The position numbers were made by a program, and so were the translations under genes. The notes under the pieces were generated by a model. The model was not told the DNA's origin. It was given only the letters and a program-made list of their open reading frames with translations, and did not search any database. From Actinomycetota bacterium (GTDB lineage: Bacteria; Actinomycetota; Actinomycetes; Mycobacteriales; Mycobacteriaceae), in the NCBI GenBank assembly GCA_018268465.1, contig JAFDWN010000018.1:1-64000 (forward strand): a stretch of DNA of 64,000 nt. Direction: 5' to 3'. Below, piece after piece: positions 13,650-64,000 of this stretch (within the stretch, counting starts at the first letter, position 1; each line of letters begins with the position of its first letter).

Positions 13650-13671
13650 GTGAACCAGGTTACAAGAAAAC

Positions 13672-13685
13672 GTTGACAAGTCAAC
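13672..13685. promoter_or_regulatory. Candidate operator in the ptsI / deoR divergent promoter
   Basis: The inverted repeat GTTGAC-AA-GTCAAC lies between the divergent starts of ptsI (23 bases away) and the DeoR-type regulator. It is a plausible binding site for that regulator. Confidence 0.5.
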
Positions 13686-13751
13686 ACGAACGGGAGTAAA
13701 ACCAAAGAGACCCACAACCAAACGGGCCGATTCCCACATAAACGGAGGGAT

Positions 13752-14519
13752 ATGTACGCCGAAGAGCGTCAGCAAGCGATTGCCTCGGAGGTGATGACCA
13801 AGGGCCGCGCATCCGTCACGGAGCTCGCGCAGGCTTACGACGTCACCACCGAGACGGTCCGTCGGGACCTCGCCGTCCTGGACAAAGCCGGATTGGTGCG
13901 GCGGGTGCACGGGGGTGCCGTTCCGGCCCGCGCGCTGCATCTCGTCGAGCCCGGTGTCGGTGAGCGCGAGACCACCCGGGCCGACTACAAAGACGCCATC
14001 GCAACGGCGGCAGCTGAATTCTTCCCGCTCGCCGGCGCCAGTGTGCTGCTCGACGCGGGCACCACCACGGCGCGGATCGCCGGCCAGATGCCGACCGACC
14101 GGGAACTGCTCGTGATCACGAACTCGGTGCCCATCGCGGCGCGGCTGGCGGGTATGCCGTCGGTGAACCTGCAGCTGCTCGGTGGCCGGGTCCGTGGCCT
14201 CACCCAGGCCGCGGTGGGCGACCAGGTCCTGCGGGTACTCGACAACCTGCGGGTCGACATCGCCTTCATCGGCACCAACGCGATCAGCCTGCGCCATGGT
14301 CTGTCCACGCCCGACACCGAGGAGGCCGCCGTGAAACGTGCAATGGTCAAAGCCGCGAACTACGTTGTGGTGGCGGCTGATTCGTCGAAGGTGGGCCGCG
14401 AGGACCTGATCAGCTTCGCCCCGATCTCCAGCGTGGACACCCTCATCACCGACGCCGAGATCAGCGCAACCGACCGCGAACTGTTTACCGCCGAAGGCGT
14501 CGAGGTGATCGTGGCATGA
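13752..14519 (+). CDS. DeoR/GlpR family regulator of the fructose PTS
   Basis: A 255-residue repressor. The N-terminal HTH at about residues 18-52 reads ASVTELAQAYDVTTETVRRDL, followed by the VRRVHGGA turn typical of DeoR proteins. The C-terminal sugar-phosphate-sensing domain contains DAGTTTARIA and IGTNAI. The expected effector is fructose 1-phosphate, by analogy with fruK-linked DeoR regulators. A good GGAGGG site precedes the ATG. Its stop overlaps the fruK start (ATGA), so regulator and kinase are co-translated. Confidence 0.92.
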   Translation: MYAEERQQAIASEVMTKGRASVTELAQAYDVTTETVRRDLAVLDKAGLVRRVHGGAVPARALHLVEPGVGERETTRADYKDAIATAAAEFFPLAGASVLLDAGTTTARIAGQMPTDRELLVITNSVPIAARLAGMPSVNLQLLGGRVRGLTQAAVGDQVLRVLDNLRVDIAFIGTNAISLRHGLSTPDTEEAAVKRAMVKAANYVVVAADSSKVGREDLISFAPISSVDTLITDAEISATDRELFTAEGVEVIVA

Positions 14520-15493
14520 TCATCACCGTCACGCCTAACCCCAGCATCGACCGCACCGTGACCCTGGCGGCCCCGCTCACCCGCGGCGCCGTACAGCGCG
14601 TCAGTTCGGTGACCAACGAACCGGGCGGCAAGGGCGTCAACGTCGCCCGGGCGCTCACCCTGGCCGGGCTGGACGCGCTCGCGCTGCTCCCCGCCTCCGA
14701 CACCGACCCCATCGTCACCGCCCTGCACGACGCGGCCGTCCCGTTCCGGTGCGTCCCGGTCTCCGAACCGGTGCGCACGAACCTGGCGATCACCGAACCC
14801 GACGGCACCACAACCAAACTCAACGAGCGCGGCGCCACCCTCGACGCCGCGGCGCTCGACGCGCTCACCCGCTCGGTGGTTGCCAGCGCGGCCGACGCCA
14901 AATGGGTGGTGCTGTCCGGCTCGCTGCCGCCGGGCATGCCCGACAGCTGGTACGCCGACATCGTCGAACTGCTGGCGCCCTATCCGTGCCGGGTCGCGAT
15001 CGACACCTCCGAGGGTCCGCTCGCCGCACTGGCGGCGGCCTTCGAACGGGCCGCCCCCGACCTGATCAAACCCAACGCCGAGGAACTCGCCGGGTTGGTC
15101 GGTGAATCCGCCGAGGCCCTGGAAAGTGCGGCCGCCGAAGGTGATCCGTACCCGGTCGTCGCCGCCGCACGGCGGTTGGTGGATCGCGGCGTCGGCGCGG
15201 TGCTGGCCACGCTCGGGTCGGCCGGCGCGGTGCTGGTCGACGGAACGGGCAGCTGGATGGCCGCCCCGCCGCCGATCGTGCCGCGCAGCACCGTGGGCGC
15301 CGGTGATTCCTCGCTGGCCGGCTACATCCGGGCCGACAGCGGGGGCGCCGAACCTCCGCAGCGGCTGCGTATGGCCGTCGCCTACGGCAGCGCCGCCGCG
15401 GCACTACCGGGCTCCGCTCTGCCCACACCCCACCAGATCGACCTCGATGCCGTTCGCCTGAACTCCATTTCGACCACTTCCGCCACTTCCTGA
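14516..15493 (+). CDS. fruK: 1-phosphofructokinase
   Basis: A 325-residue PfkB-family kinase converting fructose 1-phosphate to fructose 1,6-bisphosphate. The start TVTPNPSIDRTV and NEPGGKGVNVARAL (signature 1, near residues 37-50) are typical of FruK. The anion hole and catalytic Asp are in TVGAGDSSLAGY near residue 260. It sits between the regulator (4-bp overlap) and fruA (16-bp gap), as in classic fru operons. Confidence 0.95.
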   Translation: MIITVTPNPSIDRTVTLAAPLTRGAVQRVSSVTNEPGGKGVNVARALTLAGLDALALLPASDTDPIVTALHDAAVPFRCVPVSEPVRTNLAITEPDGTTTKLNERGATLDAAALDALTRSVVASAADAKWVVLSGSLPPGMPDSWYADIVELLAPYPCRVAIDTSEGPLAALAAAFERAAPDLIKPNAEELAGLVGESAEALESAAAEGDPYPVVAAARRLVDRGVGAVLATLGSAGAVLVDGTGSWMAAPPPIVPRSTVGAGDSSLAGYIRADSGGAEPPQRLRMAVAYGSAAAALPGSALPTPHQIDLDAVRLNSISTTSATS

Positions 15494-38893: not shown

Positions 38894-40936
38894 GTGAGTT
38901 ACACCGCCGCCGACATCACCGAACTCGATGATGTCCAGCACACACGCCTGCGGCCGGCGGTGAATCTCGGGCTCGACGTGCTCAACACCGCGCTGCGCGA
39001 ATTGGTGGACAACGCGATCGAAGAGGTCGCCGATCCCGGTCACGGTGGCTCCACCGTCACGATCACGTTGCACGCCGACGGATCCGTGAGCGTCGCCGAC
39101 GACGGTCGCGGCCTTCCCGTCGACTCCGACCCGGTGAACGGAAAGAACGGCATCGTCAAGACGCTGGGTACCGCACGGGCGGGTGGCAAGTTCTCCGCCC
39201 ACTCCGACGCCGCCAGCACCGGTGCCGGACTGAACGGAATCGGCGCAGCGGCTGCGGTGTTCATTTCCGCGCGGACCGACGTGACGGTCCGCCGGGCCGG
39301 CAAGACCTACCTGCAGAGTTTCGGCGGCGGTTACCCCGGGGTGTTCGACGGCACCGGGGGCCGGGGGTTCGACCCCGACGCCCCGTTCACCCGCTCCGAT
39401 ACCCAGAAGTTGCGCGGCACCGGCAACCGTAAGCCCGACGAGCACGGCACCACGGTGCGCATCCTCTTCGACCGGGCGGTGGTGCCCGATTCCAGCGTGG
39501 ACATCAACGAGGTGCTGCTGCGCGCGCACGCCGCCTCCCGGATGTCCCCCGGCGTGCACCTGATCGTCATCGACGAAGGATGGCCCGGCGAGACGGTCCG
39601 GCCCGAGTTGCTCGAACCGTTCAGCGGCCCGTGGGGCACGGCTACCCTGCTGGACCTCATGTGCGCCGCCGCGGGTACGCCGGTGCCCGGCGTGCGCGCG
39701 GTGGTCGAGGGTCGCGGCGAGTACACCACGGGCCGCGGCCCGACGCCGTTCCGTTGGTCGCTGACCGCCGGTCCCGCCGAGCCGGCCACGGTCGCCGCGT
39801 TCTGCAATACCGTGCGCACCCCCGGCGGCGGATCTCATCTGACCGCCGCGGTGAAGGGGCTCTCCGAAGCGCTGGCCGATCGAGCTTCCCGCATCCGCGA
39901 CCTGGGCCTGGCCAAAGGCGAAGACGGCCCGGAGGCACAGGATTTCGCCGCGGTGACCGCGCTCGCCGTCGACACTCGGGCACCCGATGTGGCATGGGAC
40001 TCGCAGGCCAAGACCGCGGTGTCCTCGCGCTCCCTCAATGTGGCGATGGCCCCGGACGTAGCGCGCAGCGTCACCATCTGGGCCGCCAACCCGGGCAATG
40101 CAGACGCCGTGTCGCTGTGGACCAAGTTGGCCTTGGAGTCGGCCCGGGCCCGGCGCAGCGCCGAAGGCGCCAAGGCCCGGTCCCGAGCGGCCTCGAAGGC
40201 CAAGGGTCTGGGGACGAACCTGTCGCTGCCGCCTAAGCTGCTGCCCAGCCGGGAGACCGGACGCGGGTCGGGCGCCGAGTTGTTCCTGTGCGAGGGCGAT
40301 TCCGCGCTGGGCACGATCAAGGCGGCGCGCGACGCCACGTTCCAGGCGGCCTTCCCGCTGAAAGGCAAACCGCCCAACGTCTATGGATTCACTCTCAGCA
40401 AGGCGCGGGTCAAGGACGAATTCGACTCGATCGAACGCATCCTGGGCTGCGGGGTGCGGGATAACTGCGATCCGGAGCTATGCCGGTACGACCGGATCCT
40501 GTTCGCCTCCGACGCCGACCCCGACGGCGGCAACATCAACTCGAGCCTGATCTCGATGTTCCTGGACTTCTACCGGCCACTCGTCGAGGCCGGGATGGTC
40601 TATGTGACCCTGCCACCGCTGTTCGTCGTGAAGGACGGAACCGAGCGGATCTACTGCCAGGACGAGTCCGAGCGCGACACCGCCGTGGCCGAGTTGAAGT
40701 CCAGGTCGAAACGCAAGGTCGAGGTGCAGCGCAACAAGGGACTCGGCGAGATGGACGCCGACGACTTCTGGAACACTGTGCTGGATCCGCAGCGGCGCAC
40801 CGTGATTCGCGTGCACCTCGATGACGGTGAATCGAAACTGCACCACACTCTGTTCGGTGGGCCGGCAGAGGGCCGACGCACGTGGATGGCCGATGTCGCC
40901 TCCCGCGTCGACACCTCTGCTCTGGACCTGACCTGA
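38894..40936 (+). CDS. Type II topoisomerase subunit B (Topo M-type, GyrB/ParE-like)
   Basis: A 680-residue ATPase subunit. The GHKL ATP site is seen as ELVDNAIEEV (about residue 36-45), DDGRGLPVD and GAGLNGIGAAAAVF. The transducer domain follows, then the TOPRIM domain with LFLCEGDSALGTIK and ASDADPDGGNI (Mg-binding acidic residues), and RNKGLGEMDADDFW. It is divergent from canonical mycobacterial GyrB. M. smegmatis has an extra pair (MSMEG_0457/0456, described as Topo M with unusual positive-supercoiling activity), and I think this is its counterpart. The GTG start lies behind GGGAGGG. Subunit A starts 12 bp downstream. Confidence 0.85.
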   Translation: MSYTAADITELDDVQHTRLRPAVNLGLDVLNTALRELVDNAIEEVADPGHGGSTVTITLHADGSVSVADDGRGLPVDSDPVNGKNGIVKTLGTARAGGKFSAHSDAASTGAGLNGIGAAAAVFISARTDVTVRRAGKTYLQSFGGGYPGVFDGTGGRGFDPDAPFTRSDTQKLRGTGNRKPDEHGTTVRILFDRAVVPDSSVDINEVLLRAHAASRMSPGVHLIVIDEGWPGETVRPELLEPFSGPWGTATLLDLMCAAAGTPVPGVRAVVEGRGEYTTGRGPTPFRWSLTAGPAEPATVAAFCNTVRTPGGGSHLTAAVKGLSEALADRASRIRDLGLAKGEDGPEAQDFAAVTALAVDTRAPDVAWDSQAKTAVSSRSLNVAMAPDVARSVTIWAANPGNADAVSLWTKLALESARARRSAEGAKARSRAASKAKGLGTNLSLPPKLLPSRETGRGSGAELFLCEGDSALGTIKAARDATFQAAFPLKGKPPNVYGFTLSKARVKDEFDSIERILGCGVRDNCDPELCRYDRILFASDADPDGGNINSSLISMFLDFYRPLVEAGMVYVTLPPLFVVKDGTERIYCQDESERDTAVAELKSRSKRKVEVQRNKGLGEMDADDFWNTVLDPQRRTVIRVHLDDGESKLHHTLFGGPAEGRRTWMADVASRVDTSALDLT

Positions 40937-40948
40937 GGAAGAAGTACT

Positions 40949-43093
40949 GTGACCGCCACCCTGGACGTTCCCGAGCAGAACCCCGACCTGGTGCTCGACC
41001 AGAGCGCCGACGACTACTGGAACCACTACCAGCTGACCTTCGCGCTCTACAGCGTCAGCGACCGCGCCATCCCGTCCGCATTCGACGGGCTCAAGCCGGG
41101 CCAGCGGCGCCTGCTGTACCAGATGCACGACTCACGGCTGCTGCCCGGCAACAAGCCGCAGAAGTCCTCGAAGGTCTGCTCTGCCGTCACCGGCAACCTG
41201 CATCCGCACGGCGGCGCGTCCATGTACGGGGCGGCGGCGCTGATGGCAGCGGAGTTCCAGCGCGTGAAGGTCATCGACGGCCAGGGCGCCTTTCCACGCA
41301 TCCAAGGTGACATTCCCGCGGCCGATCGCTATACCGAGATGCGATTGTCCGCACCGGGTGCCGCGCTGACCGCGGAGCTCAACGACCATGCCGTACCGAT
41401 GGTCTCGACCTTCGACGGTGAGTGGATCGAGCCGACGGTGCTGCCCGCCCAGTGGCCGGTACTGCTCTGCAACGGCGCTGTCGGCATCGCCGAAGGGTGG
41501 GCCACCAAGGTGCCCGCACACAATCCGCGTGAGGTGATGGCCGCCTGTCGGGCGTTGCTGAAAACCCCGAACATGACCGACGACCGGTTGCTCAAGCTCA
41601 TCCCCGGCCCCGACTGGGGGTGCGGCGCCACCGTGGTCGGCACGGCCGGACTGCGGGAGTACATCACCACCGGCCGCGGTGCCTTCACGGTGCGCGGCAC
41701 GGTGTCGGTGGACGGGAAGAACTGCATCATCACCGAGCTGCCGCCCGGCGTGGCGAGCAACACCGTGCAGGAGCGGATCCGGGCGCTGGTCGAGTCCGGA
41801 GAGATGTCGGGTGTGGCCGACATGTCCGACCTCACCGACCGGCGCAACGGGCTGCGGATCGTCGTCGCCGCGAAACGCGGTCACAGCGCCGAGACCATCC
41901 GCGACCAGCTGCTCGCGCTGACCCCGCTCGAGTCGACATTCGCGGCCAGCTTGGTCGCGCTCGACGAGGACCGGGTGCCACGGTGGTGGTCGGTGCGAGA
42001 ACTGATTGCCGCATTCCTGCATCTGCGCGATTCGGTGGTGTTGCGCCGCAGCGAGTATCGACTGGAGAAGGTCGCGGCCCGGCGCCATCTGGTGGCCGGT
42101 CTGATGCTCATCCACCTCGATATTGATGCTGCCGTCGCGGTCATCCGCAGCTCCGACACCGTCGACGACGCGCGACAGGGCCTTCAGGAGAGGTTCGGAA
42201 TCGACACCGAACAAGCCGATTACGTTCTGGCCCTGCAGCTTCGCCGGCTGACGAAGCTGGATGTCATCGAGCTGCAAGCCGAAGCGGAGAAGCTGGACGC
42301 CGAGTTCCGCGAGCTGACCGAGTTGGTGTCGAGTCCCGATGCGCGTCGGGTGGTGATCGACAGGGAGCTGGTGGAGACCGCGAAGCTGTTCAAAGGCGCG
42401 GAGTTCGACCGCCGCACGGTGCTGGATTTCGACGCGGTGCCGACGGCGTCCAGTTCCGACGAGGACGGCGCTCGCGAGCGGAAGTCCAACGCCGCCTGGC
42501 GACTTGATGACCGCGGCGTGTTCTCCGACAGTCACGGCGAGCTGCTCACCTCGGGGCTGGGCTGGGCGGTATGGACCGACGGGCGGGTGAAGTTCACCAA
42601 CGGAAACGGTCTGCCGTTCAAGATCCGCGATATTCCGGTGGCGCCCGATATCACCGGACTGCTGCGGTCCGGGGTACTTGCACCGGGATCGCATCTGGCA
42701 TTGGTGACACGACGGGGGAAGGTGCTGCGGATCGATCCGGCCGCGGTGAATCCGCAGGGTGCGGCGGGTAACGGCGTGGCCGGGGTGAAGCTCGCGGTTG
42801 GCGACCCGGAGGACACCGTGATCGCCGCCTTGCCCCTTACGTGTGAGAACGGCGAGGCCATGCTGTCGATCTCCGAGAAGGGCTGGAAAGTCACCGAGGT
42901 CGCCGACATCCCGGTGAAGGGACGCGGCGGCGCGGGCGTCGGTTTCCACCCGTTCGTCACTGGCGAGGACGCGCTGTTGTCGGCGGCGGTCTCGACGACC
43001 GGGTTCGTGCGCGGAAAGCGGGCCGTGCGGGCCGAGAAACGCGCGAAGGCTTCGGTCAAGGGTTCCGGCAACGACGTGACCCCGGCGGAGTAA
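40949..43093 (+). CDS. Type II topoisomerase subunit A (Topo M-type, GyrA/ParC-like)
   Basis: A 714-residue breakage-reunion subunit. The catalytic Tyr128 is in AADRYTEMRL, preceded by the winged-helix landmarks GLKPGQRRLLY, KSSKVCSAVTGNLHPHGG and INGQGAF-like VIDGQGAFPRIQGD. The C-terminal domain (about 500-700) has beta-pinwheel-like strands (LVTRRGKVLRIDPAAVNPQG) but no GyrA-box QRRGGKG. The protein is more than 100 residues shorter than mycobacterial GyrA. Lack of the GyrA box argues against gyrase-like negative supercoiling. It forms an operon with subunit B. Confidence 0.86.
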   Translation: MTATLDVPEQNPDLVLDQSADDYWNHYQLTFALYSVSDRAIPSAFDGLKPGQRRLLYQMHDSRLLPGNKPQKSSKVCSAVTGNLHPHGGASMYGAAALMAAEFQRVKVIDGQGAFPRIQGDIPAADRYTEMRLSAPGAALTAELNDHAVPMVSTFDGEWIEPTVLPAQWPVLLCNGAVGIAEGWATKVPAHNPREVMAACRALLKTPNMTDDRLLKLIPGPDWGCGATVVGTAGLREYITTGRGAFTVRGTVSVDGKNCIITELPPGVASNTVQERIRALVESGEMSGVADMSDLTDRRNGLRIVVAAKRGHSAETIRDQLLALTPLESTFAASLVALDEDRVPRWWSVRELIAAFLHLRDSVVLRRSEYRLEKVAARRHLVAGLMLIHLDIDAAVAVIRSSDTVDDARQGLQERFGIDTEQADYVLALQLRRLTKLDVIELQAEAEKLDAEFRELTELVSSPDARRVVIDRELVETAKLFKGAEFDRRTVLDFDAVPTASSSDEDGARERKSNAAWRLDDRGVFSDSHGELLTSGLGWAVWTDGRVKFTNGNGLPFKIRDIPVAPDITGLLRSGVLAPGSHLALVTRRGKVLRIDPAAVNPQGAAGNGVAGVKLAVGDPEDTVIAALPLTCENGEAMLSISEKGWKVTEVADIPVKGRGGAGVGFHPFVTGEDALLSAAVSTTGFVRGKRAVRAEKRAKASVKGSGNDVTPAE

Positions 43094-53106: not shown

Positions 53107-53486
53107 CCATCGTCACGTCCTCGTCACCCTGCGTTGTCTTACTCGGTCCTTGGTCGTGCACGACCTCGCCCCGCGAAGGAAGGTCCGCTCATGGCCGGCC
53201 GAACGCAGCGGCCCGATCAGACCGTGCGGGTCGCAGCACCACAGTGCACAGCGGAAAGGCAGCCGCTAAGAGTCCGCCGGGTTTCCCCTCGTCGGCATGC
53301 GACTGGGGCACCGACACACTCTTAGGTCAGCAGTGTCAAGGGAACAACGGCTAGAACGGCCGGCCTCGTCGTCAGTCTTGGCTACTTCCCCGCGTGCCGA
53401 AATCTCCTCTGCGCAACGGGAAAGGCCATACCCTTAGCGGATCAGGCGGTCAGTCAAGGCGGCTGGAATCGGCGGAGGATGCGGTG
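53107..53486. other. 380-bp intergenic region after glpK
   Basis: No convincing gene. A 44-codon frame from ATG 53191 has a fair ribosome site (AAGGAAGG) but poor codon usage. An 8-bp inverted repeat (CTAAGAGT at 53266-53273, ACTCTTAG at 53318-53325) is the only structure noted; its arms are too far apart for a simple terminator. Confidence 0.45.
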
Positions 53487-56400
53487 ATGGCAACGCCGGC
53501 GGTGTGCGGGTCGTGTGGCGCGGCACCTCGCAAAGGCGCCCGATTCTGCGACAGCTGCGGGGCAGCGCTGGTGACCTCGGTGACCGCTGCGGAGTACAAG
53601 CAGGTGACCGTGTTGTTCGCCGATGTGGTGCGCTCGATGGACATCGCGGCCGCGGTGGATATGGAGCGGTTGCGCGAGATCATGATCGAGGTGGTGGAGC
53701 GGTCGGCGACGGCCCTGCGCCGCTACGGGGCGACTGTGGAGTACACCGGTGACGGGGTGATGGCGATCTTCGGCGCCCCAATAGCATTCGAGGATCACGC
53801 TTTTCGTGCCTGTCTCGCCGCGTTGGCGATTCAGGAGGAGGCGCACCGGCTGGCAGGCGAGGTGGCGCGCCGCGATGGCGTGGTTCTGCGGTTGCGGGTA
53901 GGGCTGAACTCGGGCCAAGTGATCGCCGGTGAGATCGGTTCGGGGTCGCTGGGCTACGCGGCGACCGGCGAGGCGGTCGGGTTGGCGCAGCGGATGGAAT
54001 CGGTGTCCCCGCCGGGCGCGGTGATGCTGTCGGAGTCGACCGCGCGGCTGGTCGAGCACAGCGTGCTGCTGGGTGAACCGCAGTGGGTACGCATCAAGGG
54101 CGCCGACGACCCCGCTTCCGCGCGTCAGCTGATGGCAATCACGCCGCGGGCGGGTCACGCCGGGCGTGCCGAGGCAAGTCTGGTGGGGCGGCGCTGGGAA
54201 ATGGCGGCGCTGGAGGCCATGGTGCACCGTGCCATCGGAGGCCGCGGTGGCGTCGTGCACTTTGTGGGACCGCCGGGCATCGGCAAGTCGCGGACGGCCC
54301 GGGAGGCTGCGGCGCTGGCGGCCGGTCGCGGGGTTGAGGTGGTGTGGGCCTTCTGCGAATCCCACGCCCGTGAAGTCCCCTTCCACACGGTGACCCGGTT
54401 GCTGAGGGCGCGCACCGGCGTCGATGACCTCGACAGCGACGCCGCCCGCGCGAAAGTGCGGGCACAGATTCCCGACGCCGACCCGCATGATCTGCTCCTG
54501 CTCGATGATCTGCTGGGCATCGCCGACCCCGAGGTGCCGTTCCCCCAGATCGACCCGGATGCGCGGCGGCGCCGGTTGACCACGCTGATCAACGCCGCAT
54601 CGTTGGCGCGCACCGCACCGGCGCTGTTCATCATTGAGGACGCGCAGTGGATCGATGCAGTTAGCGAGTTAATGTTGGCCGACTTCCTGGCGGTGATTAC
54701 CAACACGGCGACGATGGTGCTGATCACGTCTCGCCCCGAATATCAGGGGACGCTCATGCGGGCACGCGGCGCCCAGGCGATAGCGCTCGGCCCACTCAAC
54801 GATTCGGACACCGCGGCATTAGTCGCTGAGCTACTGGGCTCAGATCCCTCGGTCGGCGAGCTGGCGGCGATCATCACCGAGCGGGCCGCCGGGAATCCGT
54901 TCTTCGTCGAGGAGATGGTGCGCGAGCTGGCCCAGCGCGCGGTGCTGGGCGGCGAGCGCTGCAGCTATGTGTGTCACACGCAAACCGCGGACGTCGCCGT
55001 GCCGGCCACGGTGCAGGCGGCCATCGAGGCGCGTATCGACCGGCTGACCAGCCCGGCCAAGCGCACACTCAACGCGGCGTCGGTGATCGGCGCCAGTTTC
55101 GGAACCGACCTGCTCGCGGAACTGGGCATCGACGCGATGGTGGACGAGCTGCTAGGCGCGGAGCTGATCGATCAGGTGCGCCTCACCCCACGCGCCGAGT
55201 ATTCCTTCCATCACCCGTTGATCCGCGCGGTCGCGTACGAATCGCAGCTGAAATCCGATCGCGCCCAGTGGCACCGGCGCCTGGCCGCCGCGATCCAGGA
55301 GCGTGCGCCGGGGTCGGTGGACCAGAACGCCGCGCTGATCGCCGAGCACCTCGAAGCAGCGGGCGAGGTGCGCGCGGCATACGGCTGGCACATGCGCGCC
55401 GCAGCGTGGTCAACCCACCGCGACATCGTTGCGGCGCGGACCAGCTGGCGACGAGCACGGCAGGCCGCTGACCGCCTACCCCAGAACGACCCCGAGAAGA
55501 CTGCGATCTGCATCGCGCCGCGCACCCTGCTGTCCGCAACTGCATTTCGAGTAGGCGGCAGCCCTGCCGATACCGGCTTCGACGAACTTCGTGATCTGTG
55601 CATTACCGCAGGTGATAAGCAGTCGCTGGCGATCGGCATGACTGGGCCAGTGATGAGCTACCTGCTCTCGGCGCGCCGCCACGACGCATCGCGGCTCGCC
55701 TCGGAACTCATCGGCCTACTCGAGTCGATCGACGATCCGACATTGATGATTGCACTCTCTTTCGTGGCGATCGCCGCCAAGCACGAGACCGCCGAAATGG
55801 CTGAGGTTCTCCGAGTGTCGCAACGGGTCATCGACCTTGCGGACGACGACGCGACCAGGGGCAATCTGCTCTTCGAATCCCCGTTGGCACTTGCCACAGT
55901 CATGCGAGGCGTCGCCCGCTGGTGCTTGGGCATTACGGGATGGAGAAAAGACCTCGATCGGGCGGCGATGTTGGCCCGCAAGTCCAACACAGGGACCACC
56001 TCCAGCGCGGCAACCATAGCCACGGTGACGTGGTTCACATACATCGGCGCTATCCCGTACGGCGTGATTCTGCCGGATGCAACTGCGTTGGAGGACACCA
56101 GACAAGCGCTTGCGCTGGCCGACCAAACGGGTGACGACCTTGCACTCGACCTGGCTCGAGCCACGCGCGGCATCACCCTCTTTTATCAAGAAGGACACCA
56201 GCGTGAGGCTAGCGTGGCGTTGTTTGCGAAGACGCGGAAACGGGCTCTTGAAGGACAGTTTGCGTCTGTTGCCATACCGGTTGTCGACATCCACATCGCT
56301 CGGGAGAAGGCCAGACTGGGGGATCTGGACGGTGCTATCGAGCTAACACGGGCTGTTCTCAATGGATCGTCAGATTCAGGCGGGTGGATCTGGAACGCCT

Positions 56401-56669
56401 TGGCCACCGGCGCTGTGGTGGAGGCACTGATCCAACGAAACGACAAGGGAGATTTCGAGGCTGCACAGTCAGCGCTCGACCGTCTCGCGTCTGTGCAAAC
56501 CGACCCGGGATTCGTGGTGAATGAGATCACGCTGCTGCGGCTGCGTGCTCTGCTAGCACAGGCTTGCGGCGACGACGCTGCCTACCGGGAGTGGCTGGAG
56601 GGCTATCGCGCGATGGCGACATCGCTTGGCTTCGAAGTACACATCGCCTGCGCCGACGCGATGTCATGA
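53487..56669 (+). CDS. Cyclase-domain / AAA-type ATPase / TPR-like signalling protein
   Basis: A 1060-residue multidomain protein. Residues 7-24 form a zinc ribbon (CGSC and CDSC). A class III nucleotide cyclase domain spans about 36-215 with both metal Asp (Asp46 in LFADVV, Asp89 in YTGDGVMAIFGAP). The substrate-specifying Lys is Glu85 and the transition-state Asn is Gly165 (VGLAQRM), while Arg169 is kept. An STAND/AAA ATPase follows with Walker A GPPGIGKS (261-268) and ALFIIEDAQW as Walker B. The C-terminal 500 residues are helical, TPR-like, without a LuxR HTH. ATG 53487 has GGAGGA 8 bases upstream. Cyclase activity is uncertain. Confidence 0.82.
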   Translation: MATPAVCGSCGAAPRKGARFCDSCGAALVTSVTAAEYKQVTVLFADVVRSMDIAAAVDMERLREIMIEVVERSATALRRYGATVEYTGDGVMAIFGAPIAFEDHAFRACLAALAIQEEAHRLAGEVARRDGVVLRLRVGLNSGQVIAGEIGSGSLGYAATGEAVGLAQRMESVSPPGAVMLSESTARLVEHSVLLGEPQWVRIKGADDPASARQLMAITPRAGHAGRAEASLVGRRWEMAALEAMVHRAIGGRGGVVHFVGPPGIGKSRTAREAAALAAGRGVEVVWAFCESHAREVPFHTVTRLLRARTGVDDLDSDAARAKVRAQIPDADPHDLLLLDDLLGIADPEVPFPQIDPDARRRRLTTLINAASLARTAPALFIIEDAQWIDAVSELMLADFLAVITNTATMVLITSRPEYQGTLMRARGAQAIALGPLNDSDTAALVAELLGSDPSVGELAAIITERAAGNPFFVEEMVRELAQRAVLGGERCSYVCHTQTADVAVPATVQAAIEARIDRLTSPAKRTLNAASVIGASFGTDLLAELGIDAMVDELLGAELIDQVRLTPRAEYSFHHPLIRAVAYESQLKSDRAQWHRRLAAAIQERAPGSVDQNAALIAEHLEAAGEVRAAYGWHMRAAAWSTHRDIVAARTSWRRARQAADRLPQNDPEKTAICIAPRTLLSATAFRVGGSPADTGFDELRDLCITAGDKQSLAIGMTGPVMSYLLSARRHDASRLASELIGLLESIDDPTLMIALSFVAIAAKHETAEMAEVLRVSQRVIDLADDDATRGNLLFESPLALATVMRGVARWCLGITGWRKDLDRAAMLARKSNTGTTSSAATIATVTWFTYIGAIPYGVILPDATALEDTRQALALADQTGDDLALDLARATRGITLFYQEGHQREASVALFAKTRKRALEGQFASVAIPVVDIHIAREKARLGDLDGAIELTRAVLNGSSDSGGWIWNALATGAVVEALIQRNDKGDFEAAQSALDRLASVQTDPGFVVNEITLLRLRALLAQACGDDAAYREWLEGYRAMATSLGFEVHIACADAMS

Positions 56670-57546
56670 GCGCGGTTGGGTGGCCTCAGCGCACGATCCG
56701 CCCGACGTCGGCATCAAATCGGGATACTAGAGTCCCTACGCCTTTGGACAATCCGTACGCGTCACCCGCCACCACGGCCCCCCGCCGCCGCCGCCACCGC
56801 CACCCTTACTCCGGCACCACCTCCACCGCCGGTCGAGACCGTCGTCAGCGAGCCGCCGGCCCACCGCCGGTGACGATCACGTGGGCCCCGCTTCGTGTTC
56901 ACGCAGCGCGGGATCGTCGGTCGTCGGTACAAATTGACGGCACACGTCTCAAACTGCTTCTCGGATAGGAGATCGCGGCCGCGGCGGATATGGAGCGGTT
57001 GCGCGAGACCATGATCGAGGTGGTGGAGCGGTGGGCGACGGCCCTGCACCGCCACGGTGCGTTCGTACGGCTGTTGATGGCGCTGGCGGTACCGGTCGAT
57101 GAGGTTGCGTTCGGGGTTTCGCAAACTACCTGTGACCGATCAGGGCTCGGGATGAACGCGGGGGCAGGATGGTTGACCGACCGGATCGGCCTGGGCGTGC
57201 TGACCACGCTGGTCCACCGCGCACCGAGCGGCGCTACGCCCGGGTCACCCGGTAGTTCCCGGCGCCAGGTCGGGGCGCACAGCGGCGCTACAGTGCCGCG
57301 GACGTCGAGGATCTCGGCTCAGAACGTATCGGGATGCGCGCGCCCTACTGACTCGGCACGGCCATAAGTAGCATCGGGCCGAAACAGGGCCAAATTGCAG
57401 TGGCGCCCTACTGGGCTCGTCTGCCTCAATGCGAGCGACGATTCCCATTGCGGACCGGGACCACCCCCGTGGCGAACCTTCCGCCAACGCAGACAGGGAG
57501 ACACGTCGATGAGTACGCAAGATTCGCCTGTCACGGCGGCGTGACC
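56670..57546. other. Degenerate region downstream of the cyclase gene
   Basis: About 0.9 kb without an intact gene. It holds a proline-codon-rich stretch (56757-56870) that reads as the middle of a lost proline-rich protein, the cyclase fragment at 56972-57060, and around 57170-57220 a short frame (WLTDRIGLGVLTTLVHR) that resembles the opening of IS4-type transposases as I remember them. No terminal inverted repeats were found. The region looks like a scar of past duplications or insertions. Confidence 0.5.
56972..57060 (+). pseudogene. Fragment of a cyclase gene, copy of 53643-53731
   Basis: Bases 56972-57059 match 53643-53730 at 82 of 88 positions by my reading, encoding the cyclase segment around DMERLRE-(I/T)-MIEVVER. 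Both flanks diverge completely. Either a partial duplication or the last trace of a paralogous cyclase gene. Confidence 0.75.
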
Positions 57547-57847: not shown

Positions 57848-59530
57848 ATGCCGATCGACTGGATCGATGCGCCATCAGCTGACGCCGGACTGTTTGTCGC
57901 GGATGACATCGACGGATGGCAGCACCGCTCCTATGCCGAACTCGCCGGAGAATCGCGCCGGATCGGCGGGGCGCTACGCGCAAACGGTCTGCGTGTAGGG
58001 GACGACGCCTGCATCGTGATGCCCTCGGGGCATCGATGCGTCGCAGCGATGTACGCGGTGTGGCTGTGCGGAGCCACGGTAACGCAGATCGCGCCTCCGA
58101 CATTCGGTGATGATGCCGCATACATCGAGCGGATCAGCGCGATACTGCGAAGCGCCAATCCACGTAGCGTGCTGACCACACCCGAACTGATGTCCACAGT
58201 CGAAAGAGCGGTCCGTGGCGCAGGTCTGTCTCGGGAGCCGCTGGCGCTGACGGAGGATCTGATCAACGCAGCCGATCCCATCGGTCGGACACATGGACGC
58301 GCCGAATGCGCACTGTTGCAGTTCACTTCGGGATCGACCGGCACCCCACGCGGGGTGATGGTCAGCTGGCCCAACCTTGCCGCGAACCTGCAATCGATCA
58401 GCAGATTGCTCGGCTGGCGATCGGGTGACGCCATGGTGTCGTGGCTGCCTCTCTACCACGACATGGGACTCATCACTCTCCTCATGGGAATCGCGAACCA
58501 GGGGTCGCTCTACCTGATGCGCCCCGACCAGTTCATCAGGGACCCGATGCGGTGGATCCGCGCGATGTCCGGACGGCAGCATTCGATATGTCCGTCGTTC
58601 GGGATCGACTACGCCGCTCGCCGGCTGAGCCCGGAAAATATTGAAGGAGTCGACCTTACCTCCTGGAAGTCACTGGCGACCGGAGCCGAGTGCATCGACC
58701 TGACCGCCTTGCACGCATTCTCCCGACTGGTCGAACCGGCGGGGTTCAACCCCACGGCCATGATCGCCGCCTACGGCCTGGCCGAGGCCACATTGCTGGT
58801 CACCGGAACCCCTTTTGACCAACCGATCAGCGCCCTTCGCATCGACGAGTCATCCCTGCGGCCCGGGCAGCAGGTTGCGGTCCTGGATCGTGCACAGTTC
58901 ACCGGACAGCAGCTACCAGGTACCGGGTGGATCGCTGGGTTGGGTCCGGCCGGCTCCGAGGTCAGCGTCATCGACCAGAACGGCGCGCTACTGCCCGATG
59001 GAGTCCTCGGGGAGATCGCAGTGTGTTCGCCGTCCGTAGCCATGGGGTATCGCGGCGACACATCGGGGCCGGGCACCTCCACTCGATTCTCCGATGCCGG
59101 TGTCCTGCACACCGGTGACGCAGGATTCTGTTACGCGGGAGAGGTATTCGTCCTCGGGCGGATGGGTTCGGCTCTCAAGGTACGGGGCAAATCCGTGTTC
59201 ATGGAGGACCTCGAAACGCGACTCGCTGCGGCGACCGGGATTCCCAAATGCAAGTTCTGCGCGGTCGCGCACAGCGGGGTGGGGAGGCCGGGCGTCGCCC
59301 TCTTCGCCGAGACCTTGGCGGGCAGCTGGGTGGGTACCGCCCGCCGCCTGCTCCGAACCGATCTCGGTCCAGACCCGACGATCCAAATCGTGATCGGACC
59401 AAGGCGATTCATCCGGAGAACGTCCAGCGGCAAACCGTGCCGCCAGAAGATGTGGGCTCTGCTCATCGCCGGCGACCTGGTCGAGGGAACGGTGATCGAC
59501 GACCAACCCCATCTGCGGAGTACCGGATGA
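57848..59530 (+). CDS. FAAL-type fatty-acyl-AMP ligase (FadD family)
   Basis: A 560-residue AMP-forming enzyme. The ATP loop is LLQFTSGSTGTPRG (about 156-169), followed by SWLPLYHDMGLI, the fatty-acyl-AMP-ligase pattern, AAYGLAEATLLV near residue 302 (A5-like motif), and HTGDAGFCYAGEVFVLGR with KVRGKS near the C-terminal domain. FAALs activate a fatty acid as acyl-adenylate and load it onto an acyl carrier protein rather than CoA; the ACP gene overlaps by 4 bp. The start is uncertain: ATG 57848 is the first Met, and GTGs up to 57758 are open. Confidence 0.87.
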   Translation: MPIDWIDAPSADAGLFVADDIDGWQHRSYAELAGESRRIGGALRANGLRVGDDACIVMPSGHRCVAAMYAVWLCGATVTQIAPPTFGDDAAYIERISAILRSANPRSVLTTPELMSTVERAVRGAGLSREPLALTEDLINAADPIGRTHGRAECALLQFTSGSTGTPRGVMVSWPNLAANLQSISRLLGWRSGDAMVSWLPLYHDMGLITLLMGIANQGSLYLMRPDQFIRDPMRWIRAMSGRQHSICPSFGIDYAARRLSPENIEGVDLTSWKSLATGAECIDLTALHAFSRLVEPAGFNPTAMIAAYGLAEATLLVTGTPFDQPISALRIDESSLRPGQQVAVLDRAQFTGQQLPGTGWIAGLGPAGSEVSVIDQNGALLPDGVLGEIAVCSPSVAMGYRGDTSGPGTSTRFSDAGVLHTGDAGFCYAGEVFVLGRMGSALKVRGKSVFMEDLETRLAAATGIPKCKFCAVAHSGVGRPGVALFAETLAGSWVGTARRLLRTDLGPDPTIQIVIGPRRFIRRTSSGKPCRQKMWALLIAGDLVEGTVIDDQPHLRSTG

Positions 59531-59808
59531 GCGCGCCGCAGAAATCCCGAGAGCCCGAGCGCCAGAAAGTGATCCGACTGATCACCGCGCTGGCGGCACC
59601 AGGGTGGATACCCGAGGACCCCAAGGCCCTAGCGCCCGACGCCCGGCTCGTTGACGATCTCGGATTCGACTCAGTGCGGCTGATCGAACTGACGATGTTA
59701 TTGGAACGCGCCTTTGGACTTCCGCCCCAGCGTCCCGAGAATCTCACGACGATCACCACCGTCGACGACGTGGTGACCTTTGCGCTGACCGCAGCGGATC
59801 CGCTGTGA
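59527..59808 (+). CDS. Acyl carrier protein
   Basis: A 93-residue acyl carrier protein. The phosphopantetheine-attachment Ser49 is in LGFDSVRLIEL, between helices I and II of the four-helix ACP fold, with hydrophobic helix II LIELTMLLERAFGL. The first 15 residues are a charged extension. ATG overlaps the FAAL stop and its own stop overlaps the fusion-gene GTG, so the three genes are translationally coupled. It is most likely loaded by the FAAL. Confidence 0.9.
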   Translation: MSAPQKSREPERQKVIRLITALAAPGWIPEDPKALAPDARLVDDLGFDSVRLIELTMLLERAFGLPPQRPENLTTITTVDDVVTFALTAADPL

Positions 59809-62150
59809 ACCCCGACCGCGCCGTGCTGGTCACCGGGGCGACGGGGCTGATCGGAGCCGAGGTGGTGGCCCGGCTGTCGCCGCGGCATCCCGTCATCGCC
59901 GTGACACACCGGCAGCCGCTACTAAAGCGCACGGACGGCTCCACTCTGCCCTCGGACGAGTACGGCCAGTGCTGGTCCGGTGCGGGCATCGCTCGCCTGG
60001 CGGCCGACGTCCGCGAACCGGGGTTCGGTGTGGCCGCACAGGTGCTCGACGAGCTCGGGGACGCGGTGGGGTGCATCGTGCACGCCGCCGCCACGATCGC
60101 TTTCAAGGCACCTGAAGCGGAATACCGACGACTGAACATCGCCGGAACAGAACACGCTGCCGACCTGGCACAGCGATGGAACGTGCCGCTGGTCCATGTC
60201 AGCACCGCGTACGTCTGCGGTCGTCGTGACGGAACGATCTCCGAGCACGAGCTTGATGCCGGACAGGAATTCAGCAACGGATACGAGCGGAGCAAGTGCC
60301 TTGCCGAGCGACTGGTGAATCAGGCACCCGTGCGTTCGGTCATTCTGCGTCCGGCGATCGTCGCCGGGGACGCGGCCACCGGCGCCATCCGCGACTTCAG
60401 GAATCTCTATACCCTCCTCAAGTTGACCGTCGAGGGCAGGCTGCGGCACCTCCCCGGCTGCTACGACGCCACCCTTTCTCTGGTTCCCGTGGACTACGTC
60501 GCCGACGCCGTTGTCGCGGCAACCGAACGGGTCCTCACCGGTGATACATCAATTCTTGGCCGCACGTTCCATCTTCCGGGCGCCCACACGTTGTCGCTAC
60601 GTGAGGTGACCGACGTGATCGCCGAGTATCCGTCCTTCGAGGTCGGGACCTTCGTACCGCCGACAGAGTTCTCCCTCGAGGACCTCGACCCGATCCAACG
60701 CGACTACTACGAGCGCTTAGGCGCCCAATACACGTGCTATCTCGATCGGATACGCACATTCGACGACACCAACACCAGGACAGTGCTCGGCCTCGTCCCG
60801 CCGGCGACCGGTGTGGACTACCTGCGCCGTCTACTGGATTTCTGCTTGGCGGTCGGCTATCTGGGGCGGCCGGTGCCGTCGATATCGGAGATTCTGGCCA
60901 ACGTGTCGCCCCCGGTCGCCAGGGCCGCAAAGGGACGCCCCATCAACACAATGAGTTCGCTCTCGAGGCCGTTCAGCGAATCCGATCTCACGGCGGAGTT
61001 CTTCACCCAGCTCCTGCGCGAGCGGACCGGAGATGCACAGGTCGAGGTGACGGCGGCGATCCCAACGGGCAGCGCGGTCAGGGGCACGTTGTCGGCGATC
61101 GTGCAGACCGCGAATCCAGCCAGGTTCATCGGGGTCGCGCCGTTGCGGCTCAAGTTCGCCGACCGGCCCGCGGTCGACGTGATGGTGAAGTCGAAGCCGC
61201 TCGACACCGAGATGACCACCACACTTGCGGCGGTCATGTCGATGGCAGGCGGCGACCTCACGGACGCCTGGCAGAGCTGTGCGGATGCAAGCCATTTCCT
61301 CGGACTGCACCGACGCGAAATCGGCTTCTACCGCGACGCTCCCGATGCCGTAAAAGCCATCACACCACAATGTTTCGGTACCTACGAGGACGCAGAACAG
61401 GGCGTGTTCCTGGTCGTGCTCGAGCGTCTCGACGGCAAGGTGGAGTTTCTGGATTCCGTCGACACGCCGGAAGTCTGGACAACCGAACGGCTCGAAGCGG
61501 CGATCATCGGCATCACCGGCGTACACGCGCACTGGCTGGGGCGCGAGGCCGAACTGGTCAGCGCCGATTCGTGGGTAGGCCGCGACGACGAGACGCCCGG
61601 GATGCTCCCCCTGTGGCGCGCCATGTACGACCAGTACCGGATCGACTTCCCGCAGTGGGTCGACGACGCGACCTACGACCGGGCTTCGGCGGTGATCGAT
61701 GCAACCCCGACGTGGTGGGCGGAACTGGTGGCCATGCCGAGAACGTTGGTGCACAACGACTTCAACCCGCGCAATATCGCGCTGCGGAAGGACGGTAGCC
61801 TGGTCGCCTACGACTGGGAACTCGCGACGGTGCAGGTGCCGCAGCGTGACCTCGTCGACCTGCTCGCCCACGTGCTCGGCCCCGACACAAGCCCAGAAGA
61901 GGTCGATCATTTCGTCGAATTCCAGCGCCGCGCACTCGAATCTGCCTCCGGCACCACGTTGGATCCCGATGTATGGCGACGCGGATACCAGCTCAGCCTC
62001 GCCGACCTCAGTGTCAACCGCCTGCCGACCATTGCGCTCGGCCAGCGCTGGCTGCCACTGCCCTGGTTCGACCACCTCGTGCAGACCGCCAAGCGGCTCG
62101 CGAACATCGAACGCGACCGCAGTCGCCCCAAGGTCGGCCGATGCGCCTGA
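59805..62150 (+). CDS. Fusion: extended-SDR/thioester-reductase-like domain plus APH-like phosphotransferase
   Basis: A 781-residue two-enzyme protein. Residues about 5-370 are an extended SDR of the NAD-binding/thioester-reductase kind: VLVTGATGLIGAE (Gly11, 14, 17), VHAAATIAF, VHVSTAYVCG, catalytic Tyr160/Lys164 (GYERSK) and ILRPAIVAG. Residues about 390-775 are a kinase-fold domain: a Lys strand VDVMVKSKPL, the catalytic loop His650-x-Asp652 to Asn657 (HNDFNPRN) and metal Asp670 (YDWELA). Both halves keep their key residues. I know no described enzyme with this pairing. Proposed role (inference): reduce the ACP-bound acyl group and phosphorylate the resulting alcohol or a polar partner. 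GTG start overlaps the ACP stop. Confidence 0.83.
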   Translation: MNPDRAVLVTGATGLIGAEVVARLSPRHPVIAVTHRQPLLKRTDGSTLPSDEYGQCWSGAGIARLAADVREPGFGVAAQVLDELGDAVGCIVHAAATIAFKAPEAEYRRLNIAGTEHAADLAQRWNVPLVHVSTAYVCGRRDGTISEHELDAGQEFSNGYERSKCLAERLVNQAPVRSVILRPAIVAGDAATGAIRDFRNLYTLLKLTVEGRLRHLPGCYDATLSLVPVDYVADAVVAATERVLTGDTSILGRTFHLPGAHTLSLREVTDVIAEYPSFEVGTFVPPTEFSLEDLDPIQRDYYERLGAQYTCYLDRIRTFDDTNTRTVLGLVPPATGVDYLRRLLDFCLAVGYLGRPVPSISEILANVSPPVARAAKGRPINTMSSLSRPFSESDLTAEFFTQLLRERTGDAQVEVTAAIPTGSAVRGTLSAIVQTANPARFIGVAPLRLKFADRPAVDVMVKSKPLDTEMTTTLAAVMSMAGGDLTDAWQSCADASHFLGLHRREIGFYRDAPDAVKAITPQCFGTYEDAEQGVFLVVLERLDGKVEFLDSVDTPEVWTTERLEAAIIGITGVHAHWLGREAELVSADSWVGRDDETPGMLPLWRAMYDQYRIDFPQWVDDATYDRASAVIDATPTWWAELVAMPRTLVHNDFNPRNIALRKDGSLVAYDWELATVQVPQRDLVDLLAHVLGPDTSPEEVDHFVEFQRRALESASGTTLDPDVWRRGYQLSLADLSVNRLPTIALGQRWLPLPWFDHLVQTAKRLANIERDRSRPKVGRCA

Positions 62151-64000
62151 AATCGATCGCAGTTCTGGCCATGTCGCGCCGCCGGCTGGTGCTCGTTGCC
62201 GCGCTGCTCTTTGTCATCGTCAGCGGAGCCGTCGGCGCCGATGCGATCGAGAAGCTGTCCAGTGGCGGATTCAACGACCCCGGATCGGAATCCGTGCATG
62301 CCGACCACCAACTGCGTGACACCTTCGGTATCGCGGTGCCGACGTTGGTGCTGCTGGTGTCCGCGGACGCACCGATCGATTCACCCGAGGTCGCTGCAGC
62401 AGGACGTGAACTGGTGGACGAGCTTGCGCACACGCAGGGCGTCGAGCAAGTCGAATCATTCTGGACGTCGGATCAACTCGGCGCGGCACTGCAGAGCAAG
62501 GACGGTCGCAAGGCACTCATCCGCGCCCAGCTCGCCGGCGACGACAACGAACTCGCCGACCGAGGTCGGGCGCTGGCCGCACAGTTCGGTGGCACTCACG
62601 GCCCGCTCCACGTAGAAGCGACCGGCTACGCGGTGTTGCTCGCCGAAACGGAGGACATCGCAAAACAGGACCTGGTCAAGTCGGAAGTCATCGCAATACC
62701 GCTGACATTCATCGCGTTGTTCCTGATCTTCCGCGGATTGGTCGCCGCCCTGATACCGGTCGGGATCGGTGTCTTGTCCATCGTCGGAACGACATTCGTG
62801 ATGCGCGTACTCGGGGAGATCACCGACGTGTCGATCTTCGCGATCAACCTGGCTTCGGCACTCGGGCTGGCCCTCGCCATCGACTACAGCCTGCTGATCG
62901 TCGCACGCTACCGCGAGGAACTCCAGGAGTGCGACAGGTCAGAGGCCATCATCGCCGCGTTGAGCACGGCTGGACGTACCGTCGTCTTCTCGGCCGCGAC
63001 AGTCGCTTTGGCGCTGTCCGCCCTCGCAGTGTTCCCGATGTACTTCCTGCGATCGTTCGCCTACGCGGGGATCTGCGTCGTCGCGATCGCTGTCGTCGGC
63101 GCCGTCGTGGTCCTGCCCGCCATCCTCGCCGCCGTCGGACCGCGTATCGACGCGCTCTCGTTCGCCCGGCAACGCAAGCGGCTGCCACCGGGCACCGGGC
63201 GCTGGCATACGATCGCGACGCTGGTGATGCGCCGGCCCGTCCCGATCGCGATCGTGTCGGTGGGCGTGCTCACGGTGCTGGCGGTGCCGTTCGCGGGCGC
63301 CAAGCTGATGTTTCCCGACGACCGCAACCTGCCTCCGTCGTCGGCCGCCGCCATGGCGAGCCACGAGATCCGTACGGATTTTGTTCTCCCCGAGAACGGC
63401 ACTCTGGTCATCTTCGCCGACGGATTTGACGGTGCCGCAGATGATTACGAAATCGGACTGTCGTTGGTCCCCGGCGTCACCGCGGTCCACGGCCCGGACG
63501 GGACGTTCCAGGACGGTCGGCGCACGGCGGAGCGCTCGCCGCTCGAGCACACCTACTACGTCAAGAACGAGCAGGCGCGGTTCGCCGTCCAGACCGATGT
63601 CGAGCCGTTGTCCCCGCAGGGTGAGCAACTGCTTCGTGACGTGAGGGCGGTGCCATCGCCGTTCACGACGGCAGTCACCGGCCTCGGTGCGCAAACCTAC
63701 GACGGCAAGGAAGCCATCGTGCACCGGCTGCCGGTGGCGTTGGCGATCATCGCGATCACGACGTTTGTGATGCTGATGTGGCTCACCCGCAGCGTGTTCC
63801 TGCCGGTCAAGGCGATCGCGTTGACTATTCTGAGCCTCACCGCCACCTTCGGCGCGCTCGTGTTCATCTTCCAGGACGGCCATTTGCGGTGGCTTGTCGG
63901 TGATTTCGCGGTCACCAACACGCTGAACACACTCGGGCCACCGCTACTGTTCTGTGTCGCCTTCGGCCTGTCGATGGATTACGAGGTCTTCATGCTCTCG
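62141..64000 (+). CDS. MmpL-type RND lipid transporter (truncated by window end)
   Basis: The first 620 codons of an MmpL/RND family membrane protein, open to the last base. The N-terminal helix (about 13-33) is followed by a periplasmic domain (about 35-180) and a block of five helices ending near residue 330, with the family motif AIDYSLLIVARYREE (near 245). A second helix (about 370-390), a second periplasmic domain and the second block with GLSMDYEVFML at the very end follow. MmpL proteins export cell-envelope lipids using proton force. The ATG lies inside the 3' end of the fusion gene (10-bp overlap), which ties export to the FAAL pathway. Confidence 0.93.
   Translation, partial: MRLKSIAVLAMSRRRLVLVAALLFVIVSGAVGADAIEKLSSGGFNDPGSESVHADHQLRDTFGIAVPTLVLLVSADAPIDSPEVAAAGRELVDELAHTQGVEQVESFWTSDQLGAALQSKDGRKALIRAQLAGDDNELADRGRALAAQFGGTHGPLHVEATGYAVLLAETEDIAKQDLVKSEVIAIPLTFIALFLIFRGLVAALIPVGIGVLSIVGTTFVMRVLGEITDVSIFAINLASALGLALAIDYSLLIVARYREELQECDRSEAIIAALSTAGRTVVFSAATVALALSALAVFPMYFLRSFAYAGICVVAIAVVGAVVVLPAILAAVGPRIDALSFARQRKRLPPGTGRWHTIATLVMRRPVPIAIVSVGVLTVLAVPFAGAKLMFPDDRNLPPSSAAAMASHEIRTDFVLPENGTLVIFADGFDGAADDYEIGLSLVPGVTAVHGPDGTFQDGRRTAERSPLEHTYYVKNEQARFAVQTDVEPLSPQGEQLLRDVRAVPSPFTTAVTGLGAQTYDGKEAIVHRLPVALAIIAITTFVMLMWLTRSVFLPVKAIALTILSLTATFGALVFIFQDGHLRWLVGDFAVTNTLNTLGPPLLFCVAFGLSMDYEVFMLS

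Follow-up and report, generated by a model that had tools for sequence, protein, structure and literature searches.

A predicted nine-gene lipid operon in a Mycobacteriaceae genome, tentatively read as a variant of a widespread FcrA-type operon

Bacterial FcrA was described by Grossi et al. in 2025 as an enzyme that makes fatty alcohols, not mevalonate, and that differs from HMGR at the sites discussed below; the step it catalyzes, from acyl thioester to alcohol, is the one proposed here for a mycobacterial-type operon (PMC11948995). This operon begins in a stretch of 64,000 nucleotides from an Actinomycetota bacterium of the family Mycobacteriaceae (assembly GCA_018268465.1), which is referred to as the window and comprises the first 64,000 of the 122,085 bases of contig JAFDWN010000018.1. 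PF00368, the HMGR-type domain, has no match in the genome that holds the window, with controls positive in 5 of 14; in place of FcrA, a fatty-acyl-AMP ligase (FAAL), an acyl carrier protein (ACP) and an SDR-type reductase would carry out the step. We tentatively read the nine genes, at a likelihood a little short of even, as an operon whose product is a lipid with a fatty-alcohol core that is exported, and as a variant of a widespread FcrA-type operon.

Three further described systems bear likeness to the locus. ElbD of Myxococcus xanthus, like the front half of the operon, ties reductase-like, acyl-activating and ACP domains to an alkyl lipid; it is, however, a single multidomain protein with an acyltransferase-like domain, unlike the separate genes of the window, and the available passages on ElbD mention no kinase, UbiA or DUF3419 and give its fatty-alcohol step as not demonstrated in vitro (PMC9131029). 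BtaA of betaine-lipid synthesis belongs to the same family, DUF3419, as the eighth gene (PMC10685587). The betaine-lipid (DGTS) pathway needs BtaA and BtaB, whereas a Pfam scan of the nine genes, the rest of the genome not being searched, found no BtaB-like methyltransferase, nor any AGPAT/PlsC- or AGPS-type domain as in the Elb pathway. In mycobacterial lipid loci built on polyketide synthases (PKS) or nonribosomal peptide synthetases (NRPS), FAAL and MmpL occur together, as they do here; those loci carry PKS or NRPS genes, whereas the nine genes hold neither.

Composition of the operon

The four genes at the front of the operon are open frames on the forward strand with overlaps of 4, 4 and 10 bp (Table 1), and their frames and Pfam domains agree with a preliminary description made from the window. 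That description read them as a compact four-gene pathway. This reading is ruled out, since five more genes follow MmpL on the same strand beyond base 64,000, spaced by -4, -4, -4, 27 and 18 bases, and nine genes make up the unit. Ketosynthase and condensation domains are absent from all nine in the Pfam scan, in which AMP-binding and PP-binding were the only domains of PKS or NRPS type present; the earlier statement that no PKS or NRPS is in view thus holds for the nine genes, and the locus is not the edge of a PKS/NRPS locus as far as these genes extend. An Rfam search of the window returned no match.

For the FAAL (AMP-binding, 159.5 bits), the top NCBIfam match is PRK09192, ‘fatty acyl-AMP ligase’, at 265 bits against a cut-off of 600; the FadD32, FadD21 and FadD28 models match as well, every one below its cut-off, and the third model, PRK07768, is named a CoA ligase (233 bits). 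Its structurally solved relatives include FadD32, FadD23, FadD28 and a fatty-acyl-adenylate ligase, and by sequence this putative FAAL is closer to the fatty-acyl-AMP ligases than it is to acyl-CoA ligases. The motifs TSGSTG and SSGKP are present in it. The ACP matches PP-binding at 32 bits. The reductase half of the third protein matches NAD_binding_4 (129.8 bits) and carries TGATGLIG and YERSK, the kinase half matches APH (37.2 bits) and carries HNDFNPRN and DWE, and the exporter matches MMPL (283.8 bits) and carries the DY motif. The presumed catalytic motifs of all these steps are intact, as had been claimed.

The back half begins with a UbiA-like protein (Pfam 23.1 bits, NCBIfam PRK05951 107.4 bits, both below cut-off). 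The phosphoenolpyruvate (PEP)-synthase-like phosphotransferase, abbreviated PPS, has only the PPDK_N and PEP-utilizers domains in Pfam, which correspond to the ATP-binding domain and the mobile domain of PEP synthase, with no Pfam match to the pyruvate-binding C-terminal barrel; it exceeds the cut-off of NF004881, ‘phosphoenolpyruvate synthase’ (918.7 versus 883), and its nearest relatives, at 52% identity, lie in two loci of the host's own family (L031 and L036). The GNAT protein has no direct Pfam match and was identified through its relatives, all 25 of which, among those aligned, match Acetyltransf_1. Relatives within 80 DUF3419 loci described below are 20–40% identical to it, the 40% relative lying in L066. 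Among 396 genomes of the phylum, a search with E up to 1e-20 found close relatives in its own genome only; among 401 genomes of the family, a search with E up to 1e-15 added two weak relatives (28–29%); a single-protein scan of genome contigs gave no confirmed relative, and a PDB search with the single protein gave one match at chance level. The DUF3419 protein is 25–38% identical to parts of rhizobial DUF3419 proteins and found no match in a PDB sequence search (E up to 0.1 as a single sequence, up to 1 as a profile). The terminal AMP ligase is PRK09274-like (369 bits, cut-off 478) and scores 164 and 150.5 bits with OleC models whose cut-offs are 900 and 850. The SDR half reaches 37 bits with the OleD model (cut-off 580), and OleA- or OleB-type matches were absent among the best 25 NCBIfam matches for each of the nine proteins, the rest of the genome not being searched.

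Related operons and the apparent reductase swap

A plasmid search with the DUF3419 protein and the AMP ligase led to an operon on a Roseinatronobacter plasmid, in which consecutive genes encode UbiA, PPS and DUF3419 proteins, then a membrane protein, a GNAT-like protein and an AMP ligase; the same search with UbiA gave no match, and the Granulicella, Streptomyces NBC_01001 and Shinella neighborhoods were uninformative. With a DUF3419 profile built from two sequences, at least 550 relatives were confirmed and 80 loci kept, 46 of which are at least 15 kb in length (long loci). The long loci carry PPS (44), UbiA (41), an OleC-like ligase (38), a membrane protein labeled VTE5-like (34), an HMGR-like enzyme (33), GNAT (32), an MmpL-like protein (7) and an APH kinase (5); absences mean little here because contig ends cut many loci. 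A core of seven genes, namely HMGR-like, UbiA, PPS, DUF3419, VTE5-like, GNAT and OleC-like AMP ligase, is complete in 21 of the 80 loci and in one order in 19 of these. Its carriers come from many phyla and include cyanobacteria, planctomycetes, verrucomicrobia, acidobacteria and gammaproteobacteria. The window operon carries UbiA, PPS, DUF3419, GNAT and AMP ligase of this FcrA-type set. A quick tree built from 82 DUF3419 proteins places the window together with L066, L067, L070, L072, L078 and L082 (SH-aLRT 100), and bit scores for its ligase, UbiA and GNAT are likewise highest in L066, L067, L078 or L082.

Five of these six tree partners encode a fusion of an HMGR-like domain with an APH kinase, and the contig of the sixth, L067, ends before that position. 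Ten other kinases of the window type were compared. An HMGR-like domain is joined to nine of them (L031, L034, L043, L061, L066, L070, L072, L078 and L082), whereas the tenth (L138) is a stand-alone protein; the kinase of the L031 fusion (genome G078) shares 44% identity with the one in the window. Only in the window, among these eleven kinases, does an SDR precede the kinase.

We compared the residues of 45 HMGR-like sequences, 41 from the DUF3419 loci and four from the fusion loci L031, L034, L043 and L061. Of the catalytic positions, Glu559 is Glu in 44 and a gap in one, and Lys691, Asp767 and His866 are invariant. At the Ser684 position, 44 have Glu and one, L082, has Asp; the Lys735 position holds Lys in one and Arg in two and is changed in the rest; and the Leu862 position is Phe in all 45. 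The Ser684 and Lys735 positions were scored before the published FcrA signature was consulted and the Leu862 position after it. The second site that we scored is the lysine of the human NINK motif, which we take to be Lys735. For this site the FcrA paper prints Lys795 (PMC11948995). By their residues, the HMGR-like enzymes of the sister loci are FcrA-like with few exceptions, so that the operons nearest to the back half of the window operon carry putative FcrA-like enzymes with mostly the residue changes reported for FcrA in the available text (PMC11948995).

Because the nearest branch fuses an FcrA-like reductase to the same kinase, the window operon looks like an FcrA pathway in which FcrA has been replaced by FAAL, ACP and SDR, with the kinase staying fused to the reductase. 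The preliminary description had left the kinase substrate as either a fatty alcohol or a polar head. Since nine of the ten related kinases are fused to an HMGR-like domain that bears the FcrA signature, with exceptions in three of these nine, the kinase more likely acts on the alcohol, and the polar head becomes the less likely choice.

A second candidate kinase in the sister operons is the VTE5-like membrane protein, a label that we based on its motifs. APH kinase and VTE5-like protein occur together in none of the 80 loci, although both are missing from 7 of the 46 long loci; such exclusivity would be expected if both do the same job. By chance it would arise among the 46 long loci in 792 of 1370754 cases (~6e-4), a figure that is not a true probability because the APH loci are mostly one clade. 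An hhalign comparison of the VTE5-like protein with three DUF92 proteins gave 66.6%, against 0.06% for a GNAT control, and a PDB sequence search with its profile gave no match (E up to 1). Its assignment as a kinase is weakly supported.

Two of the compared loci have features of their own. L138 (3961–13936), from an Oscillospiraceae bin of goat rectum, combines the stand-alone APH kinase with PPS, DUF3419 and two AMP-ligase-like genes, and has no HMGR-like match. L066 encodes enolase-superfamily and GH3-family proteins downstream of its HMGR-kinase fusion (12386–15243), which may serve amino-acid conjugation in that version.

Relatives and flanks of the operon in its host lineage

The host's family holds a second, related operon, for which no description was found in the open-access literature. 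PPS, FAAL, an NTase-like part, ACP, SDR, NDK-like, AfsA-like and UbiA-like proteins are encoded together in 14 of 20 fetched family loci (for example L030, 6282–17385, and 13 similar loci). A FAAL match is present in 19 of the 20, with FAAL and NTase-like half in one frame in 17 and in separate frames in two; these counts are not frequencies, because matches to the SDR or the kinase served to select the loci. In the 14 loci, FAAL, ACP and SDR are up to 54, 59 and 56% identical to those of the window, whose FAAL is without the NTase-like half. The two operons share the PEP-synthase-like and UbiA-like genes, and the family operon has NDK-like and AfsA-like genes where the window operon has the kinase fusion, DUF3419, GNAT and MmpL. 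Genome G007, which holds the nearest relative of the SDR (60%), has a locus with FAAL-NTase, ACP, SDR and UbiA, and no PPS, NDK-like or AfsA match within the 20 kb fetched. In L031 and L034, FAAL, ACP and SDR adjoin an HMGR-kinase fusion, an arrangement that is plausible as a halfway state toward the reductase swap. The same two loci encode FAAL-NTase, ACP, SDR, a UbiA-like protein, the HMGR-kinase, a ketosynthase-ACP-thioesterase (KS-ACP-TE) protein and FtsX-type permeases, and L034 additionally an aspartate decarboxylase and a metallo-beta-lactamase-fold protein.

In overlapping samples of 401 genomes of the family, 396 of the genus and 384 of the class, whole-length matches to the SDR-kinase fusion were found in the window genome only, and the SDR half alone matched in 18 other genomes of the 396 genus genomes (E up to 1e-40). 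An uninterrupted cyclase/ATPase-type gene (53394–56669) precedes the operon, fragments of this gene lie on both sides of the operon (Table 1), and the last ~50 residues of the AMP-ligase gene run into the downstream fragment. The fragments look like the scar of an insertion or acquisition. In gross composition the operon genes (62–70% GC) are not distinct from the window (67%). Elsewhere in the window, at 38894–43093, two adjoining genes, one GyrB/ParE-like and the other GyrA/ParC-like, resemble a second pair for a type II topoisomerase, as judged from the starts of their translations alone.

Table 1. Positions of the nine operon genes and of the flanking cyclase-gene fragments, in contig numbering, which is also that of the window
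Feature	Position	Strand	Basis or remark
FAAL, fatty-acyl-AMP ligase (predicted), 560 aa	57848-59530	+	Pfam AMP-binding, NCBIfam, motifs
ACP, free-standing acyl carrier protein (predicted), 93 aa	59527-59808	+	Pfam PP-binding, LGFDS
SDR-APH fusion: SDR thioester-reductase-like ~1-370, APH-type kinase ~385-781	59805-62150	+	Pfam
MmpL-type exporter, 725 aa	62141-64318 (cut at 64000 by the window end)	+	Pfam MMPL
UbiA-like	64315-65259 (outside window)	+	Pfam/NCBIfam below cut-off
PEP-synthase-like phosphotransferase (PPS), 869 aa	65256-67865 (outside window)	+	Pfam/NCBIfam
GNAT, 362 aa	67862-68950 (outside window)	+	via relatives
DUF3419/BtaA-like	68978-70060 (outside window)	+	Pfam 182 bits
OleC/PRK09274-like AMP ligase	70079-71773 (outside window)	+	NCBIfam, below cut-off
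Cyclase-gene fragment, 94 bp	56968-57061	+	92.6% to 53394-56669; upstream of operon
Cyclase-gene fragment, 245 bp	71608-71849 (outside window)		88%; downstream of operon

Proposed route and competing explanations

Taken together, a model for the operon can be drawn. FAAL would activate a fatty acid, the ACP would carry the activated acyl chain, the SDR half would reduce the acyl thioester to the alcohol, possibly via the aldehyde, and the kinase half would phosphorylate the alcohol. This route from fatty acid to alcohol to phosphate we consider fairly probable, and the order of activation, loading, reduction, phosphorylation and export that was proposed at the outset appears sound, with the FcrA-like reductase fusions of the relatives adding weight to it. 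The apparent replacement of FcrA, with the fused kinase nevertheless kept, suggests that the two reductase systems deliver one type of product, namely a fatty alcohol. The presence of UbiA, phosphotransferase, GNAT, BtaA-like protein and AMP ligase suggests that the final product is more complex than a fatty alkyl phosphate. By family chemistry, from which we infer the steps after phosphorylation, the PEP-synthase-like enzyme would add a further phosphate, UbiA would couple this activated chain with an acceptor, the BtaA-like enzyme would add an aminocarboxypropyl, homoserine-type head from S-adenosylmethionine (SAM), the OleC-like ligase and GNAT would N-acylate its amine, and MmpL would export the product. 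The OleC-like ligase is retained though FcrA is gone, and may thus serve the neighboring GNAT in N-acylation and not the reductase. In its broadest form, which we hold to be somewhat unlikely, the model posits a widespread and hitherto undescribed class of bacterial lipid, made by the FcrA-type operon: a fatty alcohol is phosphorylated, perhaps twice, UbiA uses it in the manner of prenyl diphosphates, an N-acylated homoserine-type lipid results, and the window represents a natural swap of unrelated acyl-thioester reductases in which the kinase stays fused.

Several points weigh against this model. For all nine proteins we infer every reaction, and likewise the product and the sequence of steps that follow phosphorylation: the SDR may go no further than the aldehyde, the group moved by DUF3419 may be a different one, and the second phosphorylation is a guess. 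UbiA chemistry on a saturated alkyl diphosphate would be unusual. In three of the nine HMGR-kinase fusions, the Lys735 position is still basic (Lys in L082, Arg in L070 and L072), and it is L082 that has Asp instead of Glu at the Ser684 position. Reductase and kinase candidates occur together in 31 of the 46 long loci, with a kinase candidate only in 8, a reductase only in 2 and neither in 5. Of 28 VTE5-like proteins, 4 match DUF92 (best E 2.4e-4) and 3 match DUF2339 with a better best E-value (1.4e-5), and in L117 the Pfam match to DUF92 and the hhalign match cover different regions. In the quick DUF3419 tree, the window and L082 both have long branches that join each other, and therefore only the seven-row group was used, with caution. 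Lastly, the SDR-APH fusion is known from one sampled genome, in an assembly with 5.86% estimated contamination.

Thioester reductases often yield aldehydes, and an unlikely alternative builds on this: the SDR would halt at the fatty aldehyde, PPS would act like the RedH and PigC prodigiosin ligases and activate the aldehyde for condensation, the kinase would phosphorylate another intermediate, and the product would be a small secondary metabolite. RedH (371.8 bits) and PigC (343.8 bits) are indeed among the NCBIfam matches of PPS, but their cut-offs of 1350 and 1300 are far off, while that of NF004881 is exceeded; moreover, the reductase position of the sister loci holds FcrA-like enzymes, whose characterized member makes alcohols, and a kinase fused to the reductase would better fit an alcohol. 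Rated equally low is a specific form of our model, a homoserine- or betaine-type ether lipid, in which UbiA would join the alkyl chain to glycerol, DUF3419 would place the aminocarboxypropyl group on a glycerol hydroxyl and GNAT would N-acylate it, with no N-methylation. The DUF3419 match of 182 bits speaks for it, as does the formation of diacylglycerol-O-homoserine by BtaA from diacylglycerol and SAM (PMC10685587), and the available FcrA text suggests ether-lipid roles for some FcrA enzymes (PMC11948995); the lack of BtaB-like, PlsC- and AGPS-type domains among the nine genes in the Pfam scan counts against it.

It is also conceivable, though very unlikely in our estimate, that the operon is a relict or a non-functional import, perhaps unexpressed. 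Cyclase-gene fragments on both sides, a last gene that runs into one of them, and a fusion present in 1 of 396 genus genomes would fit such an origin; nine uninterrupted frames, tight spacing, intact motifs and a GC content close to that of the window argue against it.

The preliminary description had named, as an outcome that would overturn it, genes past base 64,000 that mark the edge of a known pathway. The larger unit exists, but no description of it was found: neither the nine-gene operon nor the widespread FcrA-type operon was found described in the open-access literature, most subscription papers not being covered. The main text of the FcrA paper is without the words kinase, prenyltransferase, phosphotransferase and betaine (PMC11948995), and the Lipocone paper, in its available passages, treats other systems (PMC12419801). 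The enzyme families are each known; their combination and the reductase swap appear new.

The window operon ties a lone mycobacterial-type oddity to a seven-gene operon of many phyla for which no described product was found. With the FcrA residue signature and the apparent reductase swap, the first half of that pathway becomes open to testing. If the model is true, the operon would point to a new class of bacterial membrane lipid and to a new role for relatives of DUF3419, UbiA and PEP synthase.

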